The translations under genes were made by a program, and so were the position numbers. This document shows, in pieces, positions 31,899 through 37,210 of a DNA stretch of 64,000 bases (position 1 is the stretch's first letter; the number at the start of each line of letters is the position of its first letter). The notes beneath the pieces were generated by a model. That model made no database searches. It had not been told where the DNA came from and saw only the letters and a list, made by a program, of their open reading frames with translations. This DNA comes from a virus: the IMG/VR virus record IMGVR_UViG_3300021963_000034, positions 1 through 64,000 of that record, one strand, 5' to 3'.

Positions 31899-31925
31899 TT
31901 TCTTAATGTGAATAAACACTACTCT

Positions 31926-31932
31926 TATTTAG
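31926..31932 (-). promoter_or_regulatory. Candidate late promoter for the minus-strand exported-protein operon
   Basis: CTAAATA on the minus strand (TATTTAG on plus) within CTCCTAAATAAGAG. Only sequence motif upstream of the four-gene operon; the divergent psbA promoter begins 24 nt away. Confidence 0.5.
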
Positions 31933-31955
31933 GAGAGTGTCTCCATTTGAAGGGC

Positions 31956-31989
31956 TTGACAAGGGCAGCAGACCGTAGTATGATAAATA
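31956..31989 (+). promoter_or_regulatory. psbA promoter, sigma70 box running into a late motif
   Basis: TTGACA (31956-31961), 17-nt spacer, TATGAT (31979-31984). The -10 continues as TATGATAAATA, so a T4-type late ATAAATA overlaps it. The same fused arrangement is seen before psbD and the psbD relic. It could let psbA be transcribed both early and late. Confidence 0.8.
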
Positions 31990-32046
31990 GGTAAACAAAT
32001 GTTACGAACCCTAACGGATCTGTAACATTGTCCACTCCCATTAACC

Positions 32047-32107
32047 GAGACCTATGGGGAGTATAAAAACGTCTCTCATACCCACAGTGGAGGGTGCTGT
32101 GGGGTAT
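32047..32107 (+). promoter_or_regulatory. Structured psbA leader
   Basis: The 167-nt leader holds a hairpin ATACCCACAG (32078-32087) / CTGTGGGGTAT (32097-32107) with a purine-rich TGGAGGGTG loop, and an outer GAGAC/GTCTC pair (32047-32051, 32071-32075). The purine loop mimics a ribosome site. A regulatory role is inferred. The true psbA start has no strong Shine-Dalgarno just upstream (A-rich run). Confidence 0.45.
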
Positions 32108-32156
32108 AATTGTATCAGTTCGTCCCCCCGAACTTTTAACTAACTCTCTTAAAAAA

Positions 32157-33239
32157 ATGACTGCTACAATTTCACGTCAACAATCACAATCGAATATTTG
32201 GGAACAGTTTTGTAACTGGGTAACTTCAACCGACAACCGCCTCTATGTGGGTTGGTTCGGCGTTTTGATGATTCCCTGCTTGCTTGCTGCTACTACTTGC
32301 TTCATCATCGCATTCATCGGTGCTCCCCCAGTGGACATTGATGGTATCCGTGAACCAGTTGCTGGTTCTTTGATGTACGGAAACAACATCATCTCTGGTG
32401 CTGTTATTCCTTCGTCCAATGCAATTGGACTGCACTTTTATCCTATCTGGGAAGCTGCCTCTCTTGATGAGTGGCTATATAATGGCGGTCCTTTCCAACT
32501 TGTAGTGTTCCACTTCCTCATCGGTATCTATGCCTATATGGGTCGTGAGTGGGAACTTTCCTACCGCCTGGGTATGCGTCCTTGGATCTGCGTTGCTTAC
32601 TCTGCACCTGTTGCTGCTGCAAGCGCAGTGTTCCTGGTCTATCCTTTCGGTCAAGGTTCTTTCTCTGATGCAATGCCTCTTGGCATCTCTGGTACGTTCA
32701 ACTACATGCTTGTGTTCCAGGCAGAGCACAACATCCTGATGCACCCCTTCCACATGCTTGGAGTTGCTGGTGTGTTCGGTGGTTCTCTGTTCAGTGCTAT
32801 GCACGGTTCTCTGGTTACTTCCTCGCTGGTTCGTGAAACCACCGAGAACGAGTCACAGAACTATGGTTACAAGTTCGGTCAAGAAGAAGAGACCTATAAC
32901 ATCGTTGCTGCTCACGGTTATTTCGGACGCCTTATTTTTCAATATGCTTCCTTTAATAACTCCCGTTCGCTGCACTTCTTCCTGGCTGCCTGGCCTGTGG
33001 TTGGCATCTGGTTCACTGCTCTTGGTGTAAGCACGATGGCTTTTAATCTCAACGGTCTGAATTTTAACCAGAGCATTCTGGATAGTCAGGGTCGTGTGCT
33101 CAATACTTGGGCAGATGTCCTTAACCGTGCTGGACTGGGAATGGAGGTAATGCACGAGCGCAATGCTCATAACTTCCCTCTGGACCTTGCTACTGCACAG
33201 AACACTCCTGTTGCTCTGACTGCTCCTGCAATCGGTTGA
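32157..33239 (+). CDS. psbA: Photosystem II D1 protein
   Basis: ATG 32157 gives the normal 360-aa D1; upstream codons in frame lie in the leader. All five helices are conserved. Key residues: Tyr-Z region, GISGTFNFM-type block (here [20 protein letters not shown]) and QB site ([17 protein letters not shown]). The residue in [10 protein letters not shown] is Glu, the high-light D1:2 type, at the position usually numbered 130. The C-terminal processing site (LDLA) is present. No intron interrupts it. Phage D1 replaces damaged host D1 in the thylakoid so photosynthesis continues during infection. It has its own promoter and terminator. Confidence 0.98.
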
Positions 33240-33240
33240 T

Positions 33241-33285
33241 AAAAACTCAATAGTTTTTAAGACCTCCTTCGAGAGGTCTTTTTTT
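33241..33285 (+). terminator. psbA terminator
   Basis: Two adjacent hairpins: AAAAACT/AGTTTTT (33241-33258) and AAGACCTC/GAGGTCTT (33259-33266, 33273-33280) followed by T5. The second is a standard rho-independent terminator. Confidence 0.85.
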
Positions 33286-33293
33286 GTGACTAC

Positions 33294-33323
33294 TTGACTA
33301 AATACTTAAAGTTATGCTATAAT
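33294..33323 (+). promoter_or_regulatory. Promoter for the endonuclease gene
   Basis: TTGACT (33294-33299), 18-nt spacer, TATAAT (33318-33323), 27 nt before the endonuclease ATG. A CTAAATA late motif overlaps the -35 (33298-33304). Confidence 0.7.
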
Positions 33324-33349
33324 AACTTTAACAACTTAATCAAAGGACT

Positions 33350-33790
33350 ATGAAAACCTGTAAAATTTGCAACGAATTAAAACCACTTACAGAATTTTAC
33401 CAGACAGTAAGGAATGGAACTCCTTATGGACATCATGGTAAATGTAAAAAATGTTATGTAAAAAAGCAACAAGAAAACTATGACCCTATAAAAAAGAGAG
33501 ATGAAAACTTGAAAAGGGTTTATGGTATTGGTATTGAAGAGTATAATAATCTTCTAGAAAAACAAGGACATAAATGTGCTGTCTGTGGTTCTACTGACCC
33601 GAAAGGTAGAAAATCTGGTAGAGGTGGTGGTGTAGATGTTTTCTATGTTGACCATAACCATAAAACTGGTAAGGTAAGAGGTCTACTCTGTAATGTCTGC
33701 AATAGAACTATTGGATATGTAAATGAGGATGTTGATTTGATTAGGAATATGATAGAATATGTTAAAAAGCATAAAACCAATGTCTCATAA
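33350..33790 (+). CDS. Endonuclease VII-family HNH homing endonuclease
   Basis: 146 aa. An N-terminal CxxC...CxxC zinc unit (KTCKICNELKPL, GKCKKCYVKK), a middle CAVCG, and the catalytic ββα-metal core FYVDHNHKTGKVRGLLCNVCN (DHxH...N). This is the recombination endonuclease VII domain common in phage mobile genes. It stands directly behind psbA and has its own promoter. It probably cuts psbA or nearby sequence in competing phages and so spreads with the flanking DNA. Confidence 0.85.
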   Translation: MKTCKICNELKPLTEFYQTVRNGTPYGHHGKCKKCYVKKQQENYDPIKKRDENLKRVYGIGIEEYNNLLEKQGHKCAVCGSTDPKGRKSGRGGGVDVFYVDHNHKTGKVRGLLCNVCNRTIGYVNEDVDLIRNMIEYVKKHKTNVS

Positions 33791-33902
33791 TAATCAACAT
33801 CATCCTATGGAACCCTGGATTATCTGGGCAGGTGTAGGTATGATGGGATTCACAATCATTGTGTTTGTCGTATTCACTCTTTCGGTAATTTATTGGGGAT
33901 GA
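33780..33902 (+). CDS. Small membrane peptide
   Basis: 40 aa from ATG 33780 (overlapping the endonuclease end) or 31 aa from ATG 33807. A His-rich start, then one helix (WIIWAGVGMMGFTIIVFVVF). The size recalls small photosystem subunits, but I cannot assign it. Confidence 0.45.
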   Translation: MSHNNQHHPMEPWIIWAGVGMMGFTIIVFVVFTLSVIYWG

Positions 33903-33915
33903 GCACAAACACTCA

Positions 33916-33949
33916 TTGACTTCTTTGTTAAGCAATGTTAAGATAAATA
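33916..33949 (+). promoter_or_regulatory. Promoter of the psbD relic
   Basis: TTGACT (33916-33921), 17-nt spacer, TAAGAT (33939-33944), continuing as TAAGATAAATA with a late motif fused to the -10, like psbA and psbD. Still intact upstream of the relic. Confidence 0.65.
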
Positions 33950-33970
33950 TGAGAAACGATATAGGAGGCT

Positions 33971-34042
33971 ATGACTTCTTCAACTCTTTCACCGCCCATT
34001 TCTCAGAGAGGTTGGTTCGATGTCCTGGATGACTGGAAATAA
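33971..34042 (+). pseudogene. psbD: Remnant of a second psbD (first 23 codons)
   Basis: ATG 33971 to TAA 34040-34042 encodes a 23-residue peptide: MTSS start, then [12 protein letters not shown]. The intact PsbD begins [20 protein letters not shown] with DDWLKRDRF next. The leader AGGAGGCTATGACTTCTTC is also shared. Codon choices differ at many sites (TGG TTC GAT GTC CTG against TGG TTT GAT GTC CTT), so it is a diverged copy, not a fresh duplication. The rest of the gene is absent. It keeps its promoter and ribosome site, so the peptide may be made. Confidence 0.82.
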
Positions 34043-34075
34043 ACAAAACCTCTTAGCTTCCGTGAGGACTTCTGT

Positions 34076-34168
34076 ATGACCTTTTTGGGACTATATCTTA
34101 TCTTTCTTGGTGTGAGTGGATTGTTTAGAGATTTACAGAGATACAGAGAACAAACTGACGATAGGTAG
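34076..34168 (+). CDS. 30-aa single-helix peptide
   Basis: ATG 34076 to TAG 34166-34168. Hydrophobic MTFLGLYLIFLGVSGLF, then a charged tail (RDLQRYREQTDDR). It directly follows the psbD relic. Function unknown. Confidence 0.4.
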   Translation: MTFLGLYLIFLGVSGLFRDLQRYREQTDDR

Positions 34169-34189
34169 ACACTAAAAAAATCGGCACAG

Positions 34190-34224
34190 GGGCACTTGAA
34201 AACAGGTGCCCTTTCTGGTATGAT
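34190..34224 (+). promoter_or_regulatory. Composite hairpin-promoter
   Basis: Hairpin GGGCAC (34190-34195) / GTGCCC (34206-34211) with loop TTGAAAACAG. TTGAAA (34196-34201) in the loop, 17-nt spacer, TATGAT (34219-34224). The T-run after the stem is short (CTTTCT), so termination is weaker than at similar elements. Drives the gene at 34246. Confidence 0.65.
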
Positions 34225-34245
34225 ACTCTTATATACAAATGACTG

Positions 34246-34437
34246 ATGACCAACAACAAAGAAGTAGCACAAAAAGTTTATGAAGCATTCTGGAAAGATG
34301 AACCACATCCCTGTAATGTTGATGGATATGAGATTGCTAATGCTCTCCGTGAAGTAATCAACCAACTCCAACAATCTCCTGGTGTGATTTCTTGTCCCGA
34401 CCTCCTTGAACTTTGCGATGAGTTGGAAAATCTATGA
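34246..34437 (+). CDS. Conserved small protein
   Basis: 63 aa, soluble and acidic (VAQKVYEAFWKDEPHPCNVD, then ELCDELENL). Start 22 nt after TATGAT; overlaps the next start by 4 nt. Family unknown. Confidence 0.55.
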   Translation: MTNNKEVAQKVYEAFWKDEPHPCNVDGYEIANALREVINQLQQSPGVISCPDLLELCDELENL

Positions 34438-34610
34438 CTGAAATCAAATACCGACTTACTTGGAAATCAGACACTCAACGCACTCGTAAAGAAGCATACT
34501 TTCCTACACGCACGATGGCTGAAAAGTGGTATGATGAGAAACTAACAGAAGGTAAAAAACCACAACTCTGGATGGAAGAAACCACCACTATCCTTTATAA
34601 ACTGAAATGA
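34434..34610 (+). CDS. Conserved small basic protein
   Basis: 58 aa from ATG 34434 (ATGA overlap) to TGA 34608-34610. Pattern KYRLTWKSDTQRTRKEAYFP then LWMEETTTILYKLK. Probably an alpha/beta fold; function unknown. Confidence 0.5.
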   Translation: MTEIKYRLTWKSDTQRTRKEAYFPTRTMAEKWYDEKLTEGKKPQLWMEETTTILYKLK

Positions 34611-34669
34611 GTCGTTTTACTAAAAACCCAGACGAAGAATATATGGTATCTATTGATGAGAACTATTGA
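34607..34669 (+). CDS. Possible 20-aa peptide or gene stub
   Basis: ATG 34607 overlaps the upstream TGA; stop at 34667-34669. It is acidic (KNPDEEYMVSIDENY). It ends close to the homing endonuclease gene at 34742, so it may be the start of a gene cut off by that insertion. Low confidence. Confidence 0.25.
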   Translation: MSRFTKNPDEEYMVSIDENY

Positions 34670-34704
34670 AGAACTGGAAACTAAAAAGTAGAAATATTCA
34701 TTTG

Positions 34705-34712
34705 TATAAATA
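34705..34712 (+). promoter_or_regulatory. Candidate late promoter of the HNH gene
   Basis: TATAAATA 29 nt upstream of ATG 34742. Confidence 0.5.
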
Positions 34713-34741
34713 TTTATGTAGTCAATACAGTAGCAGTAAGA

Positions 34742-35323
34742 ATGAAGCATAAACATCATATTGTTCCAAGACATATGGGTGGAACTGACGACCCTTCTAA
34801 TCTTATTGAACTGACTGTGGAAGAACACGCAGAGGCACACAGAAAGTTATGGGAACAATATGGTAATATCAAAGATTACTGTGCTTGGAAAGGTTTAGAA
34901 GGAACTATTGGTAAAGAAGAGATTGTAAGATTGCTGATGGACCCAACTGGAAGAGTTCATACAGAAGAGACCAAACAGAAAATGAGTGAGGCACATAAAG
35001 GTAAGTCAAAACATACAAAGGAAAGTAAAGAAAAGATAAGTGAAGCAAGAAAAGGAAAGCCTTTGAGTGAAGAGCACAGGGCAAAAATATCAAAAAGTTT
35101 AGAAGGAAATACCCGTATGGTGGGTAAAAAATTGAGTGATGAGACAAAGAAAAAAATAAGTGAGGCAGGTAAAGGTAATAAGAGAGCATCTGGTCCTCAT
35201 AATGTTAGTGAAGAAGCAAAAAGAAATAGGATTGAAGCAACAAAAGAAAGGTGGAGGAAATACAGGGAGGCAAAAGGACTTGACCCAAATAAACCTATTG
35301 ATAGTAGATACTCCAAGATATAG
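34742..35323 (+). CDS. HNH homing endonuclease with NUMOD3 repeats
   Basis: 193 aa. An HNH core at the N-terminus: HHIVPRHMGGTDDPSNLIEL then TVEEHAEAHR. Three or four NUMOD3 DNA-binding repeats follow (HTEETKQKMSEAHKGKS, LSEEHRAKISKSLEGN, LSDETKKKISEAGKGN), and a basic C-terminus. Typical of free-standing phage homing endonucleases. It lies 100 nt upstream of psbD and likely targets psbD or the interval around it. Confidence 0.9.
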   Translation: MKHKHHIVPRHMGGTDDPSNLIELTVEEHAEAHRKLWEQYGNIKDYCAWKGLEGTIGKEEIVRLLMDPTGRVHTEETKQKMSEAHKGKSKHTKESKEKISEARKGKPLSEEHRAKISKSLEGNTRMVGKKLSDETKKKISEAGKGNKRASGPHNVSEEAKRNRIEATKERWRKYREAKGLDPNKPIDSRYSKI

Positions 35324-35351
35324 TGCCCGCAAGGGCACCTGCCGAAGGCAG
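35323..35351 (+). terminator. Two tandem hairpins after the HNH gene
   Basis: GTGCCC-GCAA-GGGCAC (35323-35338) and CTGCC-GAA-GGCAG (35339-35351) abut each other at the stop codon. There is no T-run after them, so they may stabilise the 3' end or weaken readthrough rather than terminate. Confidence 0.5.
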
Positions 35352-35355
35352 TAAG

Positions 35356-35400
35356 TATAAATACACTTCCCTCCTTACTTGATTTGCCCTATAATAAATA
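35356..35400 (+). promoter_or_regulatory. psbD promoter region
   Basis: A late motif TATAAATA at 35356-35363 and a -10 fused to a late motif, TATAATAAATA, at 35390-35400. No good -35 lies 17 nt upstream of TATAAT (TTCCCT), so late-type recognition may matter more here. AAGGAGG precedes ATG 35424. Confidence 0.6.
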
Positions 35401-35423
35401 TGTAAAGTAATGTAAAGGAGGCT

Positions 35424-36488
35424 ATGACTTCTTCTGTTTTACAGACACCCTCCCAATCGCAGCGTGGATGGTTTGATGTCCTTGACGATTGGTTGAAAAG
35501 GGATAGATTTGTGTTCGTAGGTTGGTCTGGCCTGCTTTTATTTCCAACAGCATACCTCGCACTTGGGGGGTGGTTGACTGGAACTACATTTGTTTCAGCG
35601 TGGTATACACACGGTTTAGCATCAAGTTATTTGGAAGGTTGTAATTTTTTGACCGCAGCGGTAAGTAGCCCCGCAGACGCTCTTGGACATTCCTTACTTC
35701 TTCTATGGGGTCCAGAAGCTCAGGGAGATTTCGTCCGCTGGGTCCAACTTGGGGGACTATGGACTTTTGTGGCGCTCCACGGGGCTTTCAGCCTGATTGG
35801 ATTTATGCTCCGCCAGTTTGAGATTGCCCGTCTTGTAGGCATCCGCCCTTACAACGCAATCGCGTTCTCTGGTCCCATTGCGGTGTTCGTCAGCGTTTTC
35901 CTGATGTACCCTCTGGGTCAATCCAGTTGGTTCTTCGCACCATCCTTTGGTGTCGCAGCAATCTTCAGATTCCTTCTGTTCTTACAAGGATTCCATAACT
36001 GGACCCTCAACCCTTTCCATATGATGGGAGTTGCTGGTATACTGGGAGGAGCACTTCTCTGTGCAATCCATGGAGCAACTGTAGAAAATACTCTATTTGA
36101 AGATGGTGATCAAGCAAATACATTCAAGGCATTTGAACCGACTCAAGAGGAAGAAACCTATTCAATGGTTACTGCGAACCGCTTCTGGTCGCAGATTTTT
36201 GGAATTGCTTTTTCCAATAAGCGTTGGTTACATTTTTTCATGCTTTTTGTTCCCGTTATGGGTCTCTGGACTAGTTCTATTGGGATTATTGGTCTCGCTC
36301 TCAATCTTCGTGCTTATGATTTTGTAAGTCAAGAAGTAAGAGCAGCAGAAGACCCAAGTTACGAAACTTTCTACACAAAAAATATCTTATTAAACGAAGG
36401 GCTTCGTGCTTGGTTAGCACCAGTTGATCAACCACACGAATCGTTTGTTTTTCCTGAGGAGGTATTGCCTCGCGGAAACGCACTTTGA
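35424..36488 (+). CDS. psbD: Photosystem II D2 protein
   Basis: A 354-aa full-length D2. [16 protein letters not shown] start, [17 protein letters not shown] lumenal loop, quinone/iron region [19 protein letters not shown] and the C-terminus [12 protein letters not shown]2 pairs with D1 in the photosystem II reaction centre in the thylakoid. With psbA it keeps photosystem II repaired during infection. Flanked by homing endonucleases on both sides. Confidence 0.98.
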
Positions 36489-36492
36489 TTTT

Positions 36493-36518
36493 AAAGACCT
36501 CATTGTTGGGGTCTTTTT
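36493..36518 (+). terminator. psbD terminator
   Basis: AAAGACC / GGTCTTT stem around a TCATTGTTGG loop, then T-rich, 5 nt after the psbD stop. Confidence 0.8.
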
Positions 36519-36548
36519 TATTTACATAAGAACCAAAATATGATATTA

Positions 36549-36556
36549 TATAAATA
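36549..36556 (+). promoter_or_regulatory. Candidate late promoter of the third endonuclease
   Basis: TATAAATA 25 nt before ATG 36582, within an AT-rich stretch. Confidence 0.45.
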
Positions 36557-36581
36557 ATAATAGATATTCATATTCAGGATA

Positions 36582-37163
36582 ATGCCTTTAAATAATAAAT
36601 CAAAACCTTGTGGTGCTTTGGTTGGTGAAAAGTTTGGAAAACTTACCGTTTTAAAAGAAGAAGTTATTTTTAAAAGTGGAAAGAATAGAGTATACACAAC
36701 TTGTAAGTGCGAATGTGGTGGGCAAAAAACCTGTGAAAGATATGGTTTAGTGTCTGGAAGAACTACTAGTTGTGGGTGTGTATTAACAGAACGAACTATT
36801 GCTTTTAATAAAACCAAAAAGAAACCAAAAGGTAGCAAAAAAGCAGATGATAGAAGATATAAGATGTTTCATAATGCTCAACATAGAGCAAAAAGAAAAG
36901 GCATTCCATTCAGTATAACTATAGATGATATTATTATTCCAGAAACTTGTCCTTTACTTGGAATACCTCTTATATCTACTAATGATAAGAGTGATCCAAG
37001 AAATCCAAGTCTGGATCAAAAGGTTCCCGGTAAAGGATATACTCCAGATAATATTTGGGTTATATCTTCAAGAGCAAATGCTTTAAAGTGGGACGCATCC
37101 CTACAAGAACTAGAACTCCTAGTAGAAAACCTAAAATGTTTCTCATCCTCTTCTCATTCATAG
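36582..37163 (+). CDS. Putative homing endonuclease with N-terminal zinc ribbon
   Basis: 193 aa. The N-terminus GEKFGKLTVLKEEVIF followed by CKCECGGQKTC and GRTTSCGC is the zinc-binding domain found at the front of many phage homing endonucleases. The C-terminal half (CPLLGIPLIS, NPSLDQKVPGKGYTPDNIWV) matches a compact nuclease in the HNH superfamily. It lies just behind psbD with its own late-type promoter, and its 3' end overlaps a small phage gene, as expected for a mobile insertion. Confidence 0.75.
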   Translation: MPLNNKSKPCGALVGEKFGKLTVLKEEVIFKSGKNRVYTTCKCECGGQKTCERYGLVSGRTTSCGCVLTERTIAFNKTKKKPKGSKKADDRRYKMFHNAQHRAKRKGIPFSITIDDIIIPETCPLLGIPLISTNDKSDPRNPSLDQKVPGKGYTPDNIWVISSRANALKWDASLQELELLVENLKCFSSSSHS

Positions 37164-37210
37164 CGTTTGGAATTCTAATGTTTATATTATCTGTTATGCA
37201 AGACTTATGA
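37136..37210 (+). CDS. 24-aa membrane peptide
   Basis: ATG 37136 to TGA 37208-37210: almost entirely hydrophobic (MFLILFSFIAFGILMFILSV). It overlaps the end of the endonuclease gene by 28 nt and the next start by 4 nt. Function unknown. Confidence 0.45.
   Translation: MFLILFSFIAFGILMFILSVMQDL

Follow-up and report, generated by a model that had tools for sequence, protein, structure and literature searches.

A psbD stub between two endonuclease genes of a T4-like cyanophage, best explained as a scar of gene-end replacement

Results

A truncated copy of the psbD 5' end, located upstream of the intact psbD gene of a T4-like cyanophage, is best explained as a real and informative scar of endonuclease-driven gene-end replacement. 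This short copy, hereafter the stub, was quite probably left by intronless homing of a psbD-linked endonuclease gene, which carries the 5' end of its target in recoded form; a later tract associated with an endonuclease-VII-type gene would have re-used the stub as a crossover. The observations on which this reading is built are the displaced end, the linkage of a homing endonuclease gene (HEG) to psbD, the recoding of the psbD 5' end and a joint shared among stubs.

The DNA analyzed, called the window, comprises the first 64,000 of the 153,555 bases of a virus record, assigned to a T4-like cyanophage on the basis of its genes. The relevant features are reported in Table 1. They follow each other in the order psbA, endonuclease-VII-type gene, 47-codon ORF, stub, orf30, two small ORFs, NUMOD3/HNH gene, psbD and a further HNH-type gene; since the latter comes right after psbD, psbD is bracketed by HEGs.

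Table 1. Features of the psbA-psbD region of the window
Feature	Position	Strand	Evidence and remarks
psbA	32157-33239		Uninterrupted frame in the window
Tract without mismatch to L115, 1,283 nt	32754-34036		Right end at the last stub base homologous to psbD
Endonuclease-VII-type free-standing HEG, F-CphI relative	33350-33790	+	PF02945 8e-22; phrog_2633; tblastn against S-PM2 (L002)
Small ORF, 47 aa, phrog_7358	33759-33902	+	In HEG-free relatives, lies before the native psbD leader
Native psbD leader	33903-33970	+	TTGACT-17-TAAGAT, sigma-70-like; NATAAATA, late-promoter-like, at 33942; GGAGG; 100% identical to the L115 psbD leader
psbD stub, codons 1-22 of displaced psbD	33971-34036	+	Matches PsbD N-termini; identical to L115
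Odd joint	34037-34042	+	AAAT replaces CTT (CTT in both L115 and L108), giving an early TAA; alignment
Degenerate continuation and likely orf30 ribosome site GTGAGGA	34043-34075	+	Common to the stubs of L108/L110/L114
orf30	34076-34168	+	Follows every stub found
Two small ORFs between orf30 and the NUMOD3/HNH gene	34246-34437, 34434-34610		
NUMOD3/HNH homing endonuclease unit (gene 34742-35323)	34701-35323	+	Own TATAAATA motif at 34705; homology begins at about 34701
Leader of intact psbD, HEG-linked type	35324-35423	+	Leader comparison
First 50 codons of intact psbD, HEG-linked, synonymously recoded	35424-35573	+	
Remainder of intact psbD	35574-36488	+	Not common to other HEG-module carriers
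Third HEG-like gene, HNH-type	36582-37163		phrog_3322 endonuclease; no Pfam match; directly 3' of psbD

The stub and its counterparts in other phages

The frame 33971-34042 runs from ATG to TAA and comprises 23 codons, of which 22 are psbD codons, followed by AAA and the stop. It matches the PsbD N-termini of cultured phages in tblastn searches (best E 1e-7), and its 66 psbD-homologous nucleotides are all identical to the start of the full psbD of a sister phage, L115, which excludes a chance similarity. A preliminary description of the window had taken this frame for a repeat of the PsbD start with diverged codons, lying 1.4 kb upstream of the intact gene and between two HEG-like genes. All of this holds: the distance is 1,381 nt, the flanking genes are the endonuclease-VII-type and the NUMOD3/HNH gene, and nucleotides 1-177 of the intact psbD show 74.5% identity to the L115 gene where aligned. 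The common leader and ribosome site, also proposed there, stand only in part. GGAGGCT-ATG precedes both copies, and a motif of the NATAAATA type, published as a late-promoter sequence of S-PM2 (PMC2984593), is located at 33942 and at 35393, but the leaders otherwise belong to different families, the stub having the S-PM2/L115 type and the intact psbD the L013/L017 type.

In S-PM2 (L002), the same upstream DNA continues into a full psbD (84.8% over 138 nt). The same continuity is found in six sister loci (L115, L117, L122, L127, L132, L138), which carry psbA, the endonuclease-VII gene and the 47-codon ORF (both 100% identical), the leader and a complete psbD, the first 22 residues of which are those of the stub, and are devoid of the NUMOD3/HNH gene. 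As no difference is found among the six over the compared 1,500 nt, they perhaps represent one phage seen repeatedly. Since L115 has a full psbD at the stub's place, the stub is a displaced psbD end and not a chance product; by this comparison, it derives from a formerly complete psbD, of which it is the 5' end, and it sits exactly where the relative has its gene.

Identity to L115 ends at bases 34037-34040, where the window matches neither L115 nor L108 and the early stop arises. Because of this coincidence, the window stub looks like a recombinant, in which an older stub supplied the tail and an L115-like psbD codons 1-22. The same form of stub is present in contigs L010 and L011, and is therefore no one-off assembly error.

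Further stubs were identified by scanning viral contigs. They extend for 47 codons in L017/L113, for 28 in L110, and for about 27, with a changed end, in L108, L109 and L114. Each is immediately followed by orf30, a 30-codon ORF with no match in cultured phages at E<=1. In L110, psbD proceeds to codon 28 and is followed by a short stretch with a ribosome site, and then by orf30. L108, L114 and the window have this joint with common changes, so that the joint predates the window's lineage; L017 has a different one. In L030/L112, orf30 is found directly behind the 47-codon ORF without a stub, most simply as the result of a deletion, since six psbD-leader bases remain. The stub/orf30 joint is common to phages whose NUMOD3 HEGs are of two kinds (45% identity), hence the present HEG may not be its maker. 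Every stub contig reaching far enough contains a NUMOD3-HNH gene and a complete psbD downstream, with L109 ending earlier; the stub frame was thus not seen in phages devoid of a second psbD, where its presence as an independent conserved gene would, according to the preliminary description, have contradicted the proposed reading.

Stub frequency was evaluated on 131 loci, after exclusion of those where the psbD match ended before residue 350. They correspond to 85 unique psbD sequences: 59 HEG-free, 15 of type N, 3 of type N', 6 undecided and 2 other. Stubs accompany none of the 59 HEG-free sequences and 5 of the 18 HEG-carrying ones (2 of 15 for the N types alone), the fraction 5/18 being inflated because L108, L109, L110 and L114 were found via orf30, that is, through carrying the stub module. 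Thirteen of the 15 unique psbD types beside the closest HEG type are without a stub, some of their contigs ending before psbA, and none was found within 3.5 kb upstream of the HEG in the N' contig L234.

Two groups of candidate stubs were rejected. S-RIM32 (H11) was considered because no annotated gene lies under the match, yet its psbD is complete and simply annotated from an internal start (KU594606.1 185916-186977; L001 6001-7062). Matches to the psbD N-terminus of 25-47% identity, found upstream of psbD in many loci, have E values of 0.004-0.73 and by position lie mostly inside psbA, a psbD homologue.

The psbD-linked endonuclease and the recoded 5' end

The predicted product of the NUMOD3/HNH gene matches NUMOD3 (3.9e-20), HNH (4e-4, just under the Pfam cut-off) and the homing endonuclease family phrog_655 (5e-22), and combines the catalytic and DNA-binding domains of a HEG. 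Its homologues with at least 67% identity occupy 24 loci (L010-L033), all with psbD just downstream, whereas the other 55 of the 79 loci kept have neither psbA nor psbD within their flanks. The gene has a fixed place beside one target gene and is absent from the sister phages. The 30 matches listed from the cultured-phage collection are only 33-51% identical. The sister phages with a full psbD at the stub's place and the psbD linkage of all 24 closest HEG loci support the endonuclease-driven replacement suggested in the preliminary description.

Its proposal that a whole new psbD was brought in had to be abandoned. When the window is compared with L013, L015, L017 and L018, identity is 84-88% over the HEG unit, 90-93% over the psbD leader and 96.7% over psbD nucleotides 1-150, and only about 82-84% over nucleotides 151-1062; psbA, where present, is 82-88% identical. 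The higher similarity of HEG, leader and first 150 nucleotides, relative to the rest of psbD, implies that the HEG moves along with its leader and about 50 psbD codons. On the strength of these comparisons, they are one module with synonymously recoded codons, the remainder of psbD coming from other lineages. In the window, psbD is 89.8% identical to the L115 gene over 301-477 and about 84% over 478-1065, with flanks at 89-95%, which suggests that a portion of the gene underwent a further exchange.

Codons 13-55 are nearly invariant at the DNA level in many HEG-free phages, and are respelled almost only synonymously in HEG carriers; between the window and L115, 26% of the nucleotides and 1 of the 43 residues differ. 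Sequences identical to L115 at 88% or more of positions, over nucleotides 36-90 and also over 90-165, were classed as having a common 5' allele. This allele is found in 24 of the 59 HEG-free and in none of the 18 HEG-carrying unique psbD sequences (Fisher p 8e-4, with relatedness ignored and on a non-random sample). Over nucleotides 600-1059 the groups do not differ, the means being 82.4% and 81.3% for the two HEG-carrying groups versus 83.1% for the HEG-free one. Mean distances over nucleotides 36-165 are 0.165 among HEG-free sequences, 0.198 among HEG carriers and 0.251 between the two; the correlation between HEG and psbD 5' distances is weak (rho 0.25, p 0.03, n 13).

The association is incomplete on both sides. 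Six HEG-free types have strongly respelled 5' ends (L120, L126/L197, L148, L176, L203, L231), many others are intermediate, and L027, a HEG-carrying type, is only partly recoded. In the HEG-free L126 (psbD 1680-2741, reverse complement), psbD nucleotides 1-150 are 99.3% identical to the recoded end of the window, and possibly represent a resistance allele without an endonuclease. Such types may descend from HEG carriers that lost the gene, or may have become resistant without it; they could also mean that the HEG is a passenger.

Proposed mechanism

In phages without the HEG, the endonuclease would cut the conserved 5' coding DNA of psbD, in or after codons 28-47. Repair would then copy in the endonuclease gene, its leader and some 50 recoded, putatively cut-resistant psbD codons, and recombination of the right end inside psbD would rebuild a full gene. 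What remains upstream as a stub would be the promoter, the ribosome site and the first codons of the recipient's gene. From the sequences compared, we infer the cut and its place, the resistance of the recoded allele, and the HEG that would have produced the first joint.

The single replacement initially envisaged was amended, in that the joint predates the window's lineage, and codons 1-22 of the window stub were recently overwritten from an L115-like phage. Outside the 1,283-nt identical tract, the window differs from L115 by 4.9% in psbA and by 7-11% downstream of psbD. The tract contains the endonuclease-VII-type HEG, whose product shows 39.7% identity in its tblastn match to F-CphI of S-PM2, together with the position in psbA equivalent to the S-PM2 intron site (about 33160); psbA around that site is the reported target region of F-CphI (PMC6083498). 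As it spans both, the tract looks like the product of a recent homing of the endonuclease-VII-type gene, most simply from an L115-like phage, which would have overwritten 32754-34036, the stub giving the last right-hand homology and its last homologous base the crossover; direction and agent are suggested by the arrangement.

More tentatively, and with somewhat more doubt than confidence, stubs may be regarded as working homology arms: homing modules would retain the native 5' end (promoter and 20-50 codons) as a right-hand crossover for subsequent endonuclease-driven exchanges that originate in HEG-free phages, and the psbA-psbD region would be a hub where at least two endonuclease genes trade photosynthesis-gene ends among cyanophages again and again.

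Alternative explanations

T4-like phages recombine heavily, and the stub might have been left by ordinary recombination of divergent psbD alleles, or by tandem duplication and decay, with the endonuclease genes as passengers. The near-identity of the L126 5' end to that of the window and the lack of a stub in most HEG carriers agree with such an origin. It is nevertheless held to be rather unlikely, as the closest HEG homologues are all bound to psbD, and in several lineages the recoded block starts at the HEG and stops after about 150 nt of psbD; furthermore, the stub and the intact psbD are of different lineages, which excludes a simple tandem duplication. The short frame and the metagenomic records might suggest chance similarity or an assembly error, which is virtually inconceivable and was discarded given the complete identity to the start of a full psbD and the recurrence of stubs in L010/L011, L017, L108/L109/L114 and L110.

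Retention of the stub for a function, either as a leader peptide or transcript regulating psbD or through translational coupling to orf30, appears very improbable. The stub has an intact promoter motif, ribosome site and reading frame, the differences among stubs in codons 14-22 are synonymous, and the end of the stub frame overlaps orf30 by ATGA in L108/L110/L114. In the window, however, the early TAA shortens the frame and the overlap is gone, and in L030/L112 orf30 occurs without any stub; synonymous differences are also expected if each stub was recently the functional psbD of a recipient. A decoy transcript, offered as an alternative in the preliminary description, found no support, since folding of 33950-34168 is not unusual (z 0.85) and no Rfam family was detected in 31900-37200 other than PhotoRC-II, upstream of psbA. 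Endonuclease-driven replacement of the psbD 5' end thus stays the preferred reading.

Relation to known systems

The closest parallel is offered by fungal mitochondria (Allomyces, Glomus), where mobile endonuclease ORFs (mORFs) are described as carrying a divergent 3' end of atp6, atp9, cox2 or nad3; identity to relatives is 91-98% for native and 64-81% for inserted ends, the protein being nearly unchanged (PMC3630166). In both systems, as far as the fungal one is described there, an endonuclease gene is associated with a synonymously changed target end, the frame is restored, and the native end is displaced alongside. Two copies of the target end lie on either side of the HEG (here the stub and the psbD 5' end at 35424), and the displaced copy matches relatives (100% to L115 for the stub) while the inserted one does not (74.5%). 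The reported fungal elements, however, replace the 3' end and displace the native one downstream, whereas here a 5' end with its promoter is involved, displaced upstream, in a T4-like phage. The phage module works like fungal mORFs without 3'-end replacement, and hence is not counted as a member; it may be described as their 5'-end mirror image.

Intronless homing, as documented for the free-standing T4 endonucleases SegF, SegG and MobE (PMC2988022), provides the mechanism in general terms. The window resembles these systems in having a free-standing HEG adjoining its target gene and, as deduced from sequence, in co-inheritance of flanking DNA; the description in PMC2988022 includes no displaced target fragment or target rebuilt downstream. 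F-CphI of S-PM2 (PMC6083498) belongs to the same psbA-psbD neighbourhood, and the tract around its relative in the window fits homing. As reported, the target of F-CphI is psbA, and the enzyme acts together with an intron, whereas the window has an unbroken psbA frame and its stub relates to psbD and the NUMOD3/HNH gene; psbD is unmentioned in the main text of that paper. Phage homing enzymes can rearrange neighbouring genes, as described for SegB-driven amplification in T6 (PMC13096335). Searches of the open literature yielded no paper that, judged by title and opening of the abstract, describes a psbD-linked homing endonuclease or a psbD stub, although an earlier one may exist in print.

Among auxiliary metabolic genes, psbA and psbD of cyanophages are textbook examples, and their mosaic history is usually credited to exchange between host and phage. 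The present data indicate that selfish endonucleases may set where psbD is cut and respelled, leaving readable traces in the form of stubs, recoded 5' ends and identical tracts, and codons from about 13 to 55 provide a concrete candidate target region in psbD.

Additional observations

The PhotoRC-II RNA (RF01717, 79.4 bits) is located at 32023-32117. Several other phages have relatives of the third HEG-like gene, about 44-90% identical, in the corresponding position. In L111 (103-165, reverse complement), a phage without a stub, orf30 minus its first nine codons lies behind psbA. The psbA gene is interrupted after residue 337 in L114 (3301-4638, reverse complement), and the psbA match stops at 332 in L108 (2800-3795, reverse complement), both near the S-PM2 intron site, probably because of an intron. 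Finally, the intergenic stretch 34167-34273 contains a GGGCAC...GTGCCC stem and a TATGAT box, and corresponds to a dispersed intergenic element, copies of which are found in S-SRM01 (L003 5001-5091, 5406-5463 and 9756-9855).
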